DNA of 64,000 bases from Mailhella sp. (GTDB taxonomy: Bacteria; Desulfobacterota; Desulfovibrionia; Desulfovibrionales; Desulfovibrionaceae): positions 1-64,000 of the forward strand of contig JAFQTU010000010.1 in the NCBI GenBank assembly GCA_017408905.1, written 5' to 3'. Shown here in pieces: positions 26,632 through 61,989 of this stretch; position 1 is the first letter of the stretch, and each line of letters starts with the position of its first letter. A model generated the notes under the pieces. That model was not told the origin of the DNA, did not search any database, and was given only the letters and a program-made list of their open reading frames with translations. Position numbers and translations under genes: made by a program.

Positions 26632-26649
26632 GAGGTTCCTGCACGGAAA

Positions 26650-26744
26650 CCAAGCTTCCCTCCGGCAGTATGAGCTGCATCAGGTTCAAGGGTCAGAGGC
26701 TTCGCATCCTCTTTCTCAGCCCCACACGGGCTCCCCTAGCTGGT
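26650..26744 (-). promoter_or_regulatory. TPP riboswitch (thi box)
   Basis: On the minus strand the aptamer core shows GGGGAGCCC, GGGGCTGAGA, then ACCCTTGAACCTGATGCAG, a TACTGCC segment and GGAGGGAAGC, closed by a CCAGCT/AGCTTGG stem. These are the conserved P2-P5 elements of the TPP aptamer in the right order and spacing. It precedes the terminator and thiSGHFE. Confidence 0.95.
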
Positions 26745-26828
26745 GAACGTGGGTTTATTGTTAGTGCTGACAGGCCGTTTTGGCAAGAAAAAATTTCGAA
26801 GGTTCGCAAGCCTGCCCGGCGGTTCGGC

Positions 26829-45598: not shown

Positions 45599-46270
45599 TC
45601 AGCGCTTCATCAGTGCGCCGAGTTCTTCCACGCTGTCCACTATCCACGCGGCTCCGGCCTCGACGATATCTTCCCGTTTGCCGAAGCCGTAGGTCACGGC
45701 CACGGTGGGGAAGCCCAGCTCCTTCGCGCCGAGGATGTCGTACTTGGTGTCGCCTACCATGACGGCGGGGATGTTCGCATCAAGGCCCAGCTTGCGCAGG
45801 GCGTAGCGTATCACGTCGCTCTTGTGCACGCGGGTCTCGCAGGGGTCGCCCCCGGCGATGAAGGTGAAGGAGGAGGCCATGCCGAAGCGCTCGAGTATCT
45901 GCATGGCGAAGATCTCGGGCTTGGACGTGGCAAGGACCAGCCTGCGGCCCTCGGCCTTCCAGCCCGCCAGAAGCTCGCGCATGCCGGGGTAGGGCGTGTT
46001 CTCGTAAAGGCCCTTGGGCGCGTAGTAGTCCTGAAAGACCTCGATGGCCTTCTGGGACTGTTCGCGGCTGAAGCCGTAATGCTTGGCAAAGGAGACGTAC
46101 AGGGGCGGCCCTATGAAGTCGCCCAGCTTTTCGCGGTCGCTTTCGTGGATGCCGAAGTATTCCAGCGCCTGAAGGGTGGCGTTGATGATGCCGAGGGAAG
46201 GGTCGGTGAGCGTGCCGTCAAGGTCGAGGAAGATGTACTCGGCGTCGCGGGGGTGCTGAAGGCTGTTCAT
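45599..46270 (-). CDS. HAD-family hydrolase (phosphoglycolate phosphatase-like)
   Basis: A 223-residue HAD phosphatase with DLDGT (FLDLDGTLTD), the motif II Thr/Ser in LATSKP, and VGDTKYDILGAKELGFPTVAVTYGFG. The cap is alpha-helical and the size fits Gph/PgpP-like enzymes. It may remove phosphate from phosphoglycolate or other small sugars. The start overlaps the stop of the DMT transporter by 4 bp, so the pair is translationally coupled. Confidence 0.85.
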   Translation of the reverse strand: MNSLQHPRDAEYIFLDLDGTLTDPSLGIINATLQALEYFGIHESDREKLGDFIGPPLYVSFAKHYGFSREQSQKAIEVFQDYYAPKGLYENTPYPGMRELLAGWKAEGRRLVLATSKPEIFAMQILERFGMASSFTFIAGGDPCETRVHKSDVIRYALRKLGLDANIPAVMVGDTKYDILGAKELGFPTVAVTYGFGKREDIVEAGAAWIVDSVEELGALMKR

Positions 46271-47172
46271 AGGCGTCGGCTTCCGGTGATGACAAAGTAG
46301 AGGGCCAGGATGATACCGAGGCAGATGCCTATCTTGGTGGCGTCGATAGGCTCCCCGGTGACGAGATAGCCGAGTATCATGCCGACCACGGGGTTCACGT
46401 AGTCGTAGGAAATGGCAACGGCCGTGCTCGTATGCTCCAGCAGCCAGAAGTAGCAGGCGTAGGCCGTGATGCCGCCGAAGAAAATGAGCACGAGTACCGA
46501 GACCCATCCCAACATCGGAACGGCCTGCACGTCAAGCCTTTCTCCCCTCAAAAGACTGATGAGGAGCAGTTCCGCGCCGCCCGCCATGAGCATGAGCGAG
46601 GTGCTTTGCAGGACGGAGAGGCGGCTTTCGTGCGCGTGGGCCTTGGCGAAGAGCGAACCCGCCACCCAGCCGCTGATGTTGAGCGCAAGGCAGAGCATGC
46701 CGAAGGCCGAACCCATGCCCACAGAGCCCTGCCGGAAGCCCAGCAGGACAACACAGCCCGTGCCGAGCAGAAGGCCGAAGGCCTGCTTCCGCGTGGGCTT
46801 GTTCTCCTTCAGGAAGAGCCACCCGGCAATGACCATCCACAGGGGTATGGAACCCATGATGATGGCAACCGTGCCCGAAGGGATGTACTGCTGGCCCACC
46901 GTCATGAGCCCGGCGCTGAGGACCGACATGAAAAAGGCGGTGATGCAGGCGAACTTCACGTCCTGCCTTGTGGGCACGGCCCTGCGGCCCAGAAGCCAGA
47001 GCGCCGAGAACAGGATGAGCCCGGCACAGCCGAGGCGTGTTGCCGTGAGCAGGAAAGGGGGGATGGAGCGCAGGGCCAGCTCGATGAAGAGATAGCAGGA
47101 ACCCCATGACGCACAGACCAGAACAAGGCAGACGAGTATCATCCAGCCTTTACGATTGGACAGGGTGGGCAT
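46267..47172 (-). CDS. DMT-superfamily (EamA) transporter
   Basis: A 301-residue membrane protein with ten predicted helices in two EamA repeats (ASWGSCYLFIELALRSIPPFLLTATR; TSTAVAISYDYVNPVVGMILGYLVTGEPI). It resembles RhaT/YddG-like metabolite exporters. Cargo unknown. Coupled with the HAD phosphatase downstream. Confidence 0.85.
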   Translation of the reverse strand: MPTLSNRKGWMILVCLVLVCASWGSCYLFIELALRSIPPFLLTATRLGCAGLILFSALWLLGRRAVPTRQDVKFACITAFFMSVLSAGLMTVGQQYIPSGTVAIIMGSIPLWMVIAGWLFLKENKPTRKQAFGLLLGTGCVVLLGFRQGSVGMGSAFGMLCLALNISGWVAGSLFAKAHAHESRLSVLQSTSLMLMAGGAELLLISLLRGERLDVQAVPMLGWVSVLVLIFFGGITAYACYFWLLEHTSTAVAISYDYVNPVVGMILGYLVTGEPIDATKIGICLGIILALYFVITGSRRL

Positions 47173-47828: not shown

Positions 47829-48665
47829 CTACAGTATGCCCGAAAGGTCGGTCATGCCGTGTGCCGTGATGCGCGAAGGCCCGCCCACCCACACGTCCCA
47901 GCCAGCCGCCCCGCGTTCCATGCGCACGGAAAGGGGCGTGCCGCTGGGCTGGACGATGCTGAAGCAGGTCGCGCCGCCCTTCGCGTGTTCGGCAAGGGCG
48001 CAGGCCAGTGTTCCCGAACCGCAGGCGCTCTCGAAGCAGAGGCTGGCGGTCTCGCGCACCCAGACCACGGGGGAGAGTGAAAGGCAAGGCACGGAAGCTA
48101 CGGCGTCGGCAGGGGAGCCTCCCAGCCAGAGGTGGCCCACGGCTTCCTCTTCGAGGAGCTGGAGGCCGTGCCGCTGTTCCGCACAGAAGCGTTCCAGCTC
48201 CGTGCGGGCCGGGGATTCGCCGTACTGCACGATATGCGTGATGCCCGGCACGCGCACGAGGCAGAGCCTGTCAGAAAGAGGCTCCGGCGCGGGAAGCTCT
48301 TCAAAATGCAGGCAGGCTTCCACAAAGGGCAGGGCGCTTTCACCATGCGTGACGCGCACCTCCACCGGGCCGTCCGCGCCAGAGACTTCCACAAGGCCGG
48401 AGCTGGCCTCGCCTTCGCGGCCCAGCAGGCCGAGGGAATCCAGCACCGAGGCAAAGGCGCGCGTGGCGTTCAGGCAGAATTCCCCGCCCATCATGTCGAG
48501 GCGCGGCCTGCCTTCAAGGCGCACATAGCCCACCTGTTCGCCGCCGATATGCTGGCTGTCCATGATGGCGCTGGCCACGGCGGCGCGGCGTTCTGCGGGA
48601 ACGTCTTCCGCACGGAGGAGTATGGTAGGGTTGCCGCCGGGAGTGACCTTCCAGAATTCATGCAT
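47829..48665 (-). CDS. DapF-fold amino acid racemase, closer to histidine racemase (CntK-like)
   Basis: A 278-residue protein of the PLP-independent DapF/proline racemase fold. The two catalytic cysteines are C64 (GGEFCLNATR) and C215 (ESACGSGTLACA). True DapF has HGLGNDF at the start and CGNGARC around the first Cys; here these are TPGGNPTIL and EFCLNAT, which resemble the histidine racemase CntK as I know it. So diaminopimelate epimerase is a less likely call, though an automated annotation would probably say dapF. No metallophore genes (nicotianamine synthase-like, opine dehydrogenase) are nearby. The ATG at 48665 has TGAGG upstream. Confidence 0.72.
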   Translation of the reverse strand: MHEFWKVTPGGNPTILLRAEDVPAERRAAVASAIMDSQHIGGEQVGYVRLEGRPRLDMMGGEFCLNATRAFASVLDSLGLLGREGEASSGLVEVSGADGPVEVRVTHGESALPFVEACLHFEELPAPEPLSDRLCLVRVPGITHIVQYGESPARTELERFCAEQRHGLQLLEEEAVGHLWLGGSPADAVASVPCLSLSPVVWVRETASLCFESACGSGTLACALAEHAKGGATCFSIVQPSGTPLSVRMERGAAGWDVWVGGPSRITAHGMTDLSGIL

Positions 48666-48733
48666 GGCTTGCCTCACGGAAAAAAGGCCGCGAGCGGATG
48701 ACGCAGGCGGCCTGTAATGGTAGGTTCAACGGC

Positions 48734-49066
48734 TTAGTGGCAGCTTCCGCCGCAGGTGCCGGTCCCGCAGTGGGAACAGCCGCAGCCGCCGGAGCTGGGG
48801 AAGGGGATCTCGGGGGTCACGACGAAGCCCATAGGGCCGGCATCCACGGTAACGCCGCCCACGGTTTCCCACAGCTGCTTCACACAGCAGAAGGTGAAGC
48901 CGTCCTGCTCCACAACGAAGTCCTGTTCGTTGGGCTCGTCGAGGGCAAGGCCGATGCGGGGGCCGCTGCATCCGCCGGGGGCGAGATACATACGGATGGC
49001 TTCCTTTTTCTTATCGGCGAAGAAGGCGTCCAGTTCGGTGCGGGCGCTTTCGGTAAGTACGAACAT
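48734..49066 (-). CDS. HesB/IscA-like Fe-S protein, cysteine form
   Basis: A 110-residue protein of the IscA/HesB fold. The conserved APGGCSGPR places Cys33 where IscA binds iron or a cluster. The C-terminus is Gly/Cys rich (GGCGCSHCGTGTCGGSCH), differing from the CGCGxSF of classical IscA. It is a paralogue of 49133-49447, which has UGA at this same Cys33 position. It is separated from that gene by a terminator, so each has its own transcript. Likely role: Fe-S or persulfide handling; partner unknown. Confidence 0.85.
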   Translation of the reverse strand: MFVLTESARTELDAFFADKKKEAIRMYLAPGGCSGPRIGLALDEPNEQDFVVEQDGFTFCCVKQLWETVGGVTVDAGPMGFVVTPEIPFPSSGGCGCSHCGTGTCGGSCH

Positions 49067-49085: not shown

Positions 49086-49110
49086 AAAAAAGGGGAGGTA
49101 AGCCCTCCCC
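49086..49110 (-). terminator. Intrinsic terminator after the selenocysteine-containing HesB-like gene
   Basis: On the minus strand GGGGAGG-GCTTA-CCTCCCC followed by six Ts. Confidence 0.9.
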
Positions 49111-49132: not shown

Positions 49133-49447
49133 TCAATGCCCGCCGCAGGAGCTGCCGCAGGAACCGCAGCTGCCGCCGCCAAGGGGCAGTTCAGGCTCGA
49201 CGAGGAAGCCCATGTAGCTCACGTCGATCTTAACGCCGCCAACGCGCTCCAGAAGGGAGTTTTCGAGGCAGAAGGTGAAACCGTTGACTTCGAAGGCCTT
49301 GTCGTTTTCAGTAGGCTCATCCAGAGCCAGTGCGAGACGCGGGCCGCTTCAGCCGCCGGGGGCCAGATAGATGCGGATGCCGGACTTGGGCTTATCGGAG
49401 AAGAAAGCCTCAAGTTCTGCACGGGCAGAATCGGAAAGATGGATCAT
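49133..49447 (-). CDS. HesB/IscA-like selenoprotein (in-frame UGA as Sec33)
   Basis: Read through one TGA (49351-49349), this gives 104 residues, MIHLSDSARAELEAFFSDK then GIRIYLAPGG-U-SGPRLALALDEPTE and a Gly/Cys tail GGGSCGSCGSSCGGH. The TGA is at codon 33, exactly where the neighbouring paralogue has Cys33, and both sides stay homologous, so it is not random decay. About 20 nt after the TGA, GGCTC-TGGAT-GAGCC can form a small stem with a G in the loop, as expected for a bacterial SECIS. HesB-like selenoproteins are a known family. ATG 49447 has GGAGAATGCT upstream. A plain gene caller would miss or truncate it. The selenocysteine machinery is not in this window. Confidence 0.85.
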
Positions 49448-49541
49448 AGCATTCTCCATGTTGTTTGCGTTTGGCTATAGATAGGAACGCTTCGCCGCTT
49501 TGTCAAGGCAAGGGCGTCAAATAATATGCGGAAGGGGAAGG

Positions 49542-50745: not shown

Positions 50746-51246
50746 TTAGTTGGCGGCCTTGGGCGGCATGATGAGGGGCATGGCGGCTCTCGGGGCAGGG
50801 GCGGCTTCGGGCTTGGCCGGGGGCATGATGAGAGGCATGGCGGGGGCCGTGGGCGTGCCGCTGGTATCGTCGCTGGGGATGGCGTTCATGGCGGGCATGG
50901 CAGGCACGCCGCCCTTGCCGCCCATAGCCTTCATCATGGAACCCATATCGGGCTTCTGGGCCGCGCCGCCGTGGCCGGAGGAGAAGGCCTTCCATTCTTC
51001 AAGGCTGATGCCGCCGTCGGCATCCTTGTCGATCATCTTGAAGGCGTTCTCGTTGAGGTTGGGGCGGGCGGCGTGGAATTCTTCCCACGCGACTTTGCCG
51101 TCCTTGGAGCTGTCCATGGCGGCGAAGCGTTCGGCAGGGTCGGTGGTGCGCACGGTCTTGTTGCCGGGCATGGCAAAGGCAGGGGAGGCCGCAAGGGCGG
51201 ATATGGCAAGGAAGAGGGCGGCGGCCCTCCAGCGGGCATAGGTCAT
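50746..51246 (-). CDS. Exported EF-hand protein with repeated Met/Pro tail
   Basis: A 166-residue protein with a signal peptide (cleavage near SPAFA, residue 25). Two EF-hand loops follow: D45-E56 (DSSKDGKVAWEE) and D73-E84 (DKDADGGISLEE), with the usual acidic residues in positions 1, 5 and 12. The C-terminal third is Ala/Pro/Met rich and repeats AMPLIMPP twice. It probably binds calcium in the periplasm or on the cell surface. It is first in a two-gene unit with metC. Confidence 0.82.
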   Translation of the reverse strand: MTYARWRAAALFLAISALAASPAFAMPGNKTVRTTDPAERFAAMDSSKDGKVAWEEFHAARPNLNENAFKMIDKDADGGISLEEWKAFSSGHGGAAQKPDMGSMMKAMGGKGGVPAMPAMNAIPSDDTSGTPTAPAMPLIMPPAKPEAAPAPRAAMPLIMPPKAAN

Positions 51247-60238: not shown

Positions 60239-60314
60239 GTCGCCATCGTCTAGTGGCCTAGGACGGAGGCCTCTCAAGCCTCTAACACGGGTTCAAATCC
60301 CGTTGGCGACACCA
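60239..60314 (+). tRNA. tRNA-Glu (anticodon CTC)
   Basis: A 76-nt tRNA with encoded CCA. GTCGCCA pairs with TGGCGAC. The anticodon stem GAGGC/GCCTC encloses CTCTCAA, giving CTC; GGTTCAAATCC is the T-loop. Its 3' end is followed by the integrase at 60508 and is the likely attachment site of the right element. Confidence 0.95.
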
Positions 60315-60327
60315 AACTCGATTCCAT

Positions 60328-60373
60328 AGAAGTCCTTCTTAGTCCATAAGCGTCTAGAAGGACTTCTTTTTTT
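60328..60373 (+). terminator. Intrinsic terminator after tRNA-Glu
   Basis: AGAAGTCCTTCT pairs with AGAAGGACTTCT, then TTTTTT. Confidence 0.9.
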
Positions 60374-60438
60374 ATCCGAAAAAGGGTGAGGTTCTGTCCA
60401 TATCAGTCTGCTAGAGTCCGTTTACATCTAGGAAATTT

Positions 60439-60497
60439 GTTGCCATTATTGTTGCCACTTGGGATTTGCTCAGGTGGCAACATAGGTAAGTGGCAAC
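60439..60497. repeat. Cluster of GTTGCCAC / GTGGCAAC repeats (likely integrase arm sites)
   Basis: GTTGCCAT (60439-60446) and GTTGCCAC (60451-60458) face GTGGCAAC at 60474-60481 and 60490-60497. The last copy ends 10 bp before the integrase start codon. The same layout, with a different motif, is seen at 393-540 for the left integrase. Confidence 0.6.
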
Positions 60498-60507
60498 AGG
60501 GGAAGTT

Positions 60508-61710
60508 ATGCTGACGGATACTCTTATCAAATCACTGCACGCCAAGGCGAAGAAGGGAGAGAAGGTTTCCCAGAAGGCTGACGGCGGGGGATTGAACTTC
60601 GTTGAGGGCAAATACTGGCGCTTGTCCTATCGCTTTGGCGGAAAACAGAAGAAGGTCTGCCTGGGCGTCTATCCTGCGGTTTCCCTTCTGTCGGCAAGGA
60701 AGGCAAGGGAAGAGATAAAAGTCCTTCTTGCGCAGGGCATAGACCCTTCCGAAAAGAAGAAGGCCGACAAGGCGGAAGCGGCGCGCATGGCCTTGGACGA
60801 GGCTCTTACCTTCCGGGCCGTCGCCATGGAGTATTATCGGCGCAAGCTGGCCAACAAGCAGGAACTCTACAGGAAGCAGATCCTGTCCCGTCTGGAGAAT
60901 CAGATATTTCCTTTCATGGGGGACATCCCCGTCTCTCAGCTCAAGCCTACCCATATCCTTGCCGGACTTCGAGAAGTGGAAGAGCGCGGGGCTATAGACA
61001 TGGCGCACAGGCTGGCAAGTCTTATCCGGCAGGTGTGCAGTTTTGCCGTTGCCTGCGGCTATACGGAGTTCAACGCCGCCTCTGAGCTTACTGCCGCCAT
61101 GACTCCCAAGCCGAAAGCCACACCACGGGCGGCTATCCTCAACCCTCAGAAGATAGGCCAGCTTCTCCGAGACATAGACGAGTACCCCTGTTCCATCTCG
61201 GTGAAGTACGCCTTGAAGATCATGCCGTATCTGTTCGTTCGCTCCAAGGAACTCAGGAACGCCAAGTGGGAAGAGTTCGAGTTTGAGAACTCCCTCTGGC
61301 ATATCCCCGCTGAGCGTATGAAGATGAAGGCCGCCCATGTCGTACCACTTGCCCGGCAGGTGGTGAAGCTCCTTCAAGAGCTTCAGGTATGGAACGGGCA
61401 TACCGACCTTCTTTTTCCTTCTCCGCAGTCGAACACAAGGGCGATCTCCGACGTGGGCCTGCTCAACGCCCTGAGGCGCATGGGATACGAGAGAGAGGAA
61501 ATGTGCATCCATGGTTTCCGCTCCATAGCTTCCACGCTTTTGAACGAGTCCGGCAGATACCGGGCCGACGTTATCGAGGCGGCTCTTGCCCATGCAGAGA
61601 AGAATCAGGTACGGGCGGCCTATAACCGAGCGGAATACCTTGAGGAAAGGCGGGTGCTCATGCAGGACTGGGCAGATATGGTGGACGCTATGAGGGATGG
61701 GAAAGGATAG
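60508..61710 (+). CDS. P4-type tyrosine integrase
   Basis: A 400-residue site-specific recombinase with the DUF4102 arm-binding domain (QKADGGGLNFV, YRFGGKQKK, GVYPAVSL, LLAQGIDPSE), a SAM-like core-binding domain and the catalytic domain. In the catalytic domain Arg is in LFVRSKELRNAKW, HxxR is HGFRSIASTLL and the nucleophile Tyr is in ARA/AAYNRAEYLEERR context. ATG 60508 with AGGGGA upstream gives the family start MLTDT. It lies just past tRNA-Glu, which it presumably uses as attachment site. The rest of its element runs to the right edge and beyond. Confidence 0.92.
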   Translation: MLTDTLIKSLHAKAKKGEKVSQKADGGGLNFVEGKYWRLSYRFGGKQKKVCLGVYPAVSLLSARKAREEIKVLLAQGIDPSEKKKADKAEAARMALDEALTFRAVAMEYYRRKLANKQELYRKQILSRLENQIFPFMGDIPVSQLKPTHILAGLREVEERGAIDMAHRLASLIRQVCSFAVACGYTEFNAASELTAAMTPKPKATPRAAILNPQKIGQLLRDIDEYPCSISVKYALKIMPYLFVRSKELRNAKWEEFEFENSLWHIPAERMKMKAAHVVPLARQVVKLLQELQVWNGHTDLLFPSPQSNTRAISDVGLLNALRRMGYEREEMCIHGFRSIASTLLNESGRYRADVIEAALAHAEKNQVRAAYNRAEYLEERRVLMQDWADMVDAMRDGKG

Positions 61711-61989
61711 TTTTCCGACTAGGGGCCCCACACTTTGCTCTGGCAAAGTCTAGTGGGCTATACTTCTCCCCCTGAGAAATATTTTTTAGAGGCCGTCTCA
61801 CCTGTCTCATCTGTCTAACGACATGATTTCAAGTGCTTAGAAAGGGGCGCGGTGTCTCAGTTGGCGTATCAGCCGTCTCAAACGAATTTCTCCGGCTAGG
61901 TGTGGAAGTCGCGAGCCTCACCGAAAAGCGGTCTCCCTTGCCGCCTGCCGGAGCATCCAAAGGGAAACAGCATGAAAGGGAGATGCTGA
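61711..61989. other. Non-coding stretch with short hairpins and repeated GTCTCA motifs
   Basis: No gene seen. ACTTTGC-TCTG-GCAAAGT (61732-61749) is a perfect small hairpin just after int. GTCTCA occurs at 61795, 61804, 61854 and 61875, with GTCTAA at 61813; the first three are spaced 9 bp apart. CAGCAT...ATGCTG just before 61990 encloses the ribosome binding site of the next gene. Confidence 0.6.

Follow-up and report, generated by a model that had tools for sequence, protein, structure and literature searches.

HesB-like selenoproteins were counted in 2006 at 11 members, including those of Desulfovibrio vulgaris and Desulfovibrio desulfuricans (PMC1794560), and DVU_1382 of D. vulgaris, a HesB-family gene with an in-frame TGA, was listed in 2007 (PMC1914089). 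In Methanococcus, a protein of this kind has been labelled with 75Se, and a disruption mutant of the HesB-like selenoprotein in Methanococcus maripaludis was unimpaired in nitrogen fixation (PMC11097638). A sequence-only reading of the DNA studied here had stated that such proteins exist in some anaerobes, which the published Desulfovibrio members bear out. Given the 2006 count, the listing of DVU_1382 and an NCBI model for the subfamily, the selenoprotein gene that we describe from a 64,000-nt stretch (the window) of a contig from Mailhella sp., an uncultured Desulfovibrio relative, is a correct finding of an already described type. A partial search of the literature returned no discussion of selenocysteine (Sec) and Cys forms in tandem, which does not establish the arrangement as undescribed.

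The gene lies on the minus strand (Table 1) and is interrupted only by an internal TGA at codon 33; its one other stop is the terminal TGA at 49135-49133. It starts with ATG, 5 nt downstream of a GGAGA motif, and translates as MIHLSDSARAELEAFFSDKPKSGIRIYLAPGG-U-SGPRLALALDEPTENDKAFEVNGFTFCLENSLLERVGGVKIDVSYMGFLVEPELPLGGGSCGSCGSSCGGH, with a tail rich in Gly, Ser and Cys (GGGSCGSCGSSCGGH). The frame with TGA at codon 33 and the hairpin beyond it are real and not a product of chance, and the earlier coordinates and alignment proved exact. We read it as a HesB/IscA-like selenoprotein gene of the NF038090 subfamily in which SelB and a downstream hairpin would deliver Sec to codon 33, Sec would be a likely ligand and the next gene is a Cys duplicate, a reading to which we give a probability of about 96%.

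Table 1 Features of the Sec/Cys gene pair, in window coordinates
Feature	Position	Strand	Remarks
HesB/IscA-like selenoprotein gene	49133..49447	-	104 codons and a stop codon; codon 33 an internal TGA, predicted to encode Sec; NF038090 match, paralogue alignment
Sec codon, in-frame TGA	49349..49351	-	aligned with TGC/TGT of Cys paralogues
Probable ribosome-binding site of the selenoprotein gene	49453..49457	-	GGAGA; inferred from sequence
Bacterial SECIS hairpin	49314..49328	-	5-bp stem GGCUC/GAGCC, 5-nt loop UGGAU; published-model fit, comparison, folding
Terminator-like hairpin between Sec and Cys genes	49092..49110	-	7 bp, then T6; absent from most of the genus
Cys paralogue	48734..49066	-	110 aa; TGC opposite the Sec codon; 66 nt downstream of the selenoprotein gene

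The family assignment rests on profile searches. With C written at the TGA, the UGA copy scored 109.2 bits against NF038090 (IscA_HesB_Se; cut-off 85) over the full model, and the Cys copy scored 92.4 bits against the same cut-off with nearly the whole model covered; a six-frame search with this profile gave 102.1 and 91.6 bits, respectively. Both copies fell far under the IscA, SufA and ErpA equivalog cut-offs and under that of TIGR01911. The gene scored 43.8 bits for TIGR01911 (HesB_rel_seleno; curated cut-off 66.35) and 27.2 bits for TIGR02011 (IscA equivalog; curated cut-off 150.6), below the threshold in each case. The Pfam model Fe-S_biosyn barely exceeded its cut-off with the UGA copy and did not match the Cys copy at E 0.1, so an iron-sulphur role is extrapolated. 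Searching the sequences of solved structures found IscA/YfhF of Escherichia coli and AQ_1857 of Aquifex; codon 33 falls on the conserved first Cys. The two copies are identical at 63 of 109 positions (58%), on either side of the TGA, and the TGA aligns with the paralogue's Cys (APGG-C-SGPR), as the sequence-only reading had reported; the gene downstream is its tandem duplicate, with Cys in place of Sec. The prediction that a normal gene caller would split or miss the gene holds for a plain caller; at NCBI, the model NF038090 is dedicated to this subfamily.

A GGCTC-TGGAT-GAGCC stem had also been noticed about 20 nt downstream of the TGA, and this observation stands up to comparison. On the minus strand, GGCTC occupies 49328-49324, the loop 49323-49319 and GAGCC 49318-49314; the stem starts 20 nt past the UGA, the spacing from UGA to loop is 25 nt, and G is at loop position 2. 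The published bacterial SECIS model, as quoted in PMC13188914, allows loops of 3-9 nt and stems of 4-16 bp, asks for G within the first two positions of the loop, places the loop 16-37 nt after the UGA and sets an energy of at most -7.5 kcal/mol. The hairpin lies within every one of these limits, folding at -7.6 kcal/mol alone and at -8.8 kcal/mol with two flanking bases on each side; shuffled sequences folded as well in 5 and 2 of 200 cases, respectively. A 50-nt fold starting at the UGA was unexceptional (z -0.19). Single-sequence energy being no proof, we dropped the 50-nt energy as uninformative and compared UGA with Cys copies instead.

The stem is intact in all 50 distinct UGA copies (consensus GGCUC-UGGAY-GAGYC), a few GAGUC variants pairing through G-U, and on this comparison we accept it as a SECIS element. 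Codons +8 (GCT), +9 (CTG) and +11 (GAG) of the stretch ALDE are invariant across the same 50 copies, whereas Cys copies use 4, 4 and 2 codons for these residues. All five stem pairs are kept in 2 of 48 Cys copies and have decayed in the other 46. Within the genus, synonymous divergence among UGA copies is 0.16 in the SECIS codons against 0.50 in other downstream sequence; among Cys copies it shows no dip (0.63 against 0.59 elsewhere). These comparisons support a stem conserved far past what the protein would require. One of the two Cys copies with an intact stem, L018 (823), also keeps the loop and is likely the remnant of a former Sec gene; a comparable remnant was reported for a Desulfitobacterium HesB-like protein (PMC1794560).

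Among 19 sampled genomes of the genus, 16 carry the UGA copy, always immediately upstream of a Cys copy; the Sec/Cys pair proposed earlier is, as an adjacency, widely kept. One genome (G042) has the Cys copy only, and two have neither. G177 (93% complete) lacks both HesB copies and selA. In three genomes with a UGA copy selA was not found, which we put down to missing sequence (completeness 84, 69 and 88%). The best named matches are uncultured Mailhella and then Desulfovibrio piger. At L064 and L068 (G200), the UGA-copy tail reads GGGRSWGSWGSSCGS, with Trp replacing a tail Cys of the other genus copies.

Of 199 genomes in the wider family, 185 carry a member. Loci were read in 47 family genomes, the 30 best family scorers and 17 of the genus; 45 of these have a UGA copy at the locus, a fraction that, like those that follow, comes from a score-ranked and not an unbiased sample. 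In 44 of the 45 UGA-bearing genomes the fetched flanks include a Cys copy of the same orientation, and the UGA copy comes first in 33 of these and the Cys copy in 11. The Desulfovibrio piger locus has two Cys copies followed by the UGA copy; L026 and L027 are Cys copies. Nine relatives (L035, L037-L042, L044 and L046) have a third tandem HesB copy with Glu, Asp or Ala at the Sec/Cys site; these third copies keep part of the Cys-rich tail and form a clade of their own on a long branch. Full sequences gave Glu at the site for the L039 third copy and Cys for L045. In Desulfobulbaceae (L088-L091), the UGA copy is present without a Cys copy within the fetched flanks.

It is possible, though on balance doubtful, that the pair is a selenium-responsive switch with the Cys copy produced under selenium shortage, a refinement compatible with the selenoprotein reading. 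The tandem in all 16 genus genomes with a TGA copy and the nearby Cys copy across the family would fit such a switch, as would the terminator-like hairpin that parts the two genes in the window and the archaeal precedent of Sec/Cys isoenzymes in Methanococcus (PMC11097638). However, gene order varies, no regulatory site was identified, and the genus does not generally keep the terminator: a hairpin of this kind occurs in the window and in numerous genera elsewhere in the family, yet most of the genus, including the nearest relative (L050, G197), lacks it, and we dropped it as a conserved attenuator or general mechanism. The Cys copies also differ in their tails and show somewhat faster divergence, as would fit separate roles too. 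More tentatively still, and in our view improbably, tandem Sec/Cys HesB pairs in Desulfovibrionaceae may have formed several times and been retained because each form is required, the two serving as a selenium-dependent pair or working together in one complex, in metal, sulphur or selenium trafficking.

A tree of 107 rows contains about 10 changes of Sec label, at least 6 of them forced by well-supported branches; the alignment is short (109 columns) and leaves many forks unresolved. A single origin of the Sec/Cys split is unsupported by this tree, which suggests that duplication, conversion between copies or Sec/Cys exchange took place repeatedly.

Were the TGA a nonsense mutation in a decaying duplicate, or a sequencing error, a plain gene caller would break the frame there and an intact paralogue might adjoin, as is the case. 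However, 50 distinct copies have TGA at this very codon, and they come from 16 genomes of the genus, from other genera and from Desulfobulbaceae; dN/dS is 0.16 after the TGA, near the 0.18 before it, which indicates translation and constraint downstream of the UGA. Together with the conservation of frame and hairpin in relatives, these values refute a pseudogene or error. The sequence-only reading had named a sense codon other than Cys or Sec in a decayed frame of a related strain as evidence against a selenoprotein; relatives have TGA or Cys, with no decay.

That reading had likewise counted an absence of selA, selB or selC against its proposal; all three are found, with selD, in the host genome (1.96 Mb, 97.8% complete). 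The tRNA-Sec (selC) scored 75.6 bits, above the cut-off, with anticodon tca, and SelA (591 bits), SelB (366 bits) and SelD (286 bits) all exceeded their curated cut-offs. The host's SelD gene is itself interrupted by an in-frame TGA, at codon 9 (RGAGUAAK); as SelD is a known selenoprotein family (PMC1794560), this serves as an internal control for UGA as a Sec codon in the organism. An altered genetic code or generic readthrough, in which TGA would stand for a standard amino acid, agrees with a frame that is open in any code with sense TGA but can be rejected with near certainty, because TGA also ends the gene, tRNA-Sec, SelA, SelB and SelD are encoded in the genome, the SECIS hairpin is conserved and the aligned residue in paralogues is Cys.

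For the selenoprotein itself, we propose that the hairpin, its loop 25 nt after the UGA, guides SelB, which would bring Sec-tRNA-Sec to codon 33. Sec would then replace the first conserved Cys of A-type (IscA/HesB) iron-sulphur carrier proteins, a position that makes a role as metal, cluster or redox ligand the likeliest, probably working with the Cys-rich, Gly-rich tail. Frame, family, SECIS element, Sec machinery, purifying selection and conservation can all be read from the sequence, and from these we infer Sec insertion in the Mailhella organism with strong support. The conserved TGA and stem, along with the sel genes, thereby uphold the original proposal of a selenoprotein.

The window holds several other features. 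Directly after the pair, the gene at 47829-48677 (minus strand) shows similarity to histidine racemases (HisR of Fusobacterium, 76 bits; CntK, 65 bits) at scores far under the cut-offs of 400 and 300, respectively, and has no Pfam match at E 0.001; its product is possibly a divergent DapF-fold amino-acid racemase. Beyond it, at 46267-47172, lies a gene for a YedA-like (EamA-type) exporter. A small, secreted-looking EF-hand protein is encoded at 50746-51246 (minus strand); it matches models for lanmodulin and other calcium-binding proteins weakly, below their cut-offs. At 60239-61964, an integrase-like gene (60490-61710) comes directly after a tRNA-Glu, and a match to the int-alpA RNA family follows (61889-61964); together they probably mark an end of an integrated element that extends off the window. 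A TPP riboswitch scores 65 bits at 26640-26747 (minus strand).

For a known selenoprotein family, the locus and its relatives supply clean new members that plain annotation would shorten; as a small addition, Sec and Cys copies recur in tandem across the family. A maintained tandem of both forms amounts to a natural experiment on why Sec persists despite a Cys duplicate, and Desulfovibrio piger, a named relative with the same cluster, would make the question of Sec retention testable.

Compared with described systems, the pair is closest to NF038090, to which both copies belong; nothing essential differs, and the locus represents another genus of the same bacterial family. With the HesB-like selenoproteins of TIGR01911 the gene shares Sec at the conserved HesB Cys and the UxGP motif (PMC13188914), yet it scores below that family's cut-off. 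E. coli IscA (YfhF; PDB 1R94 and 1S98) is homologous over residues 2-80, with codon 33 on its first conserved Cys, whereas the present gene has Sec for that Cys and a Gly/Ser/Cys-rich tail and scores far below the IscA equivalog cut-off. As in the Sec/Cys isoenzymes of M. maripaludis, a Sec form and a Cys form occur within one genome; there, a selenium switch among methanogenesis enzymes has been shown experimentally (PMC11097638), whereas in the Mailhella pair such a switch would be hypothetical.
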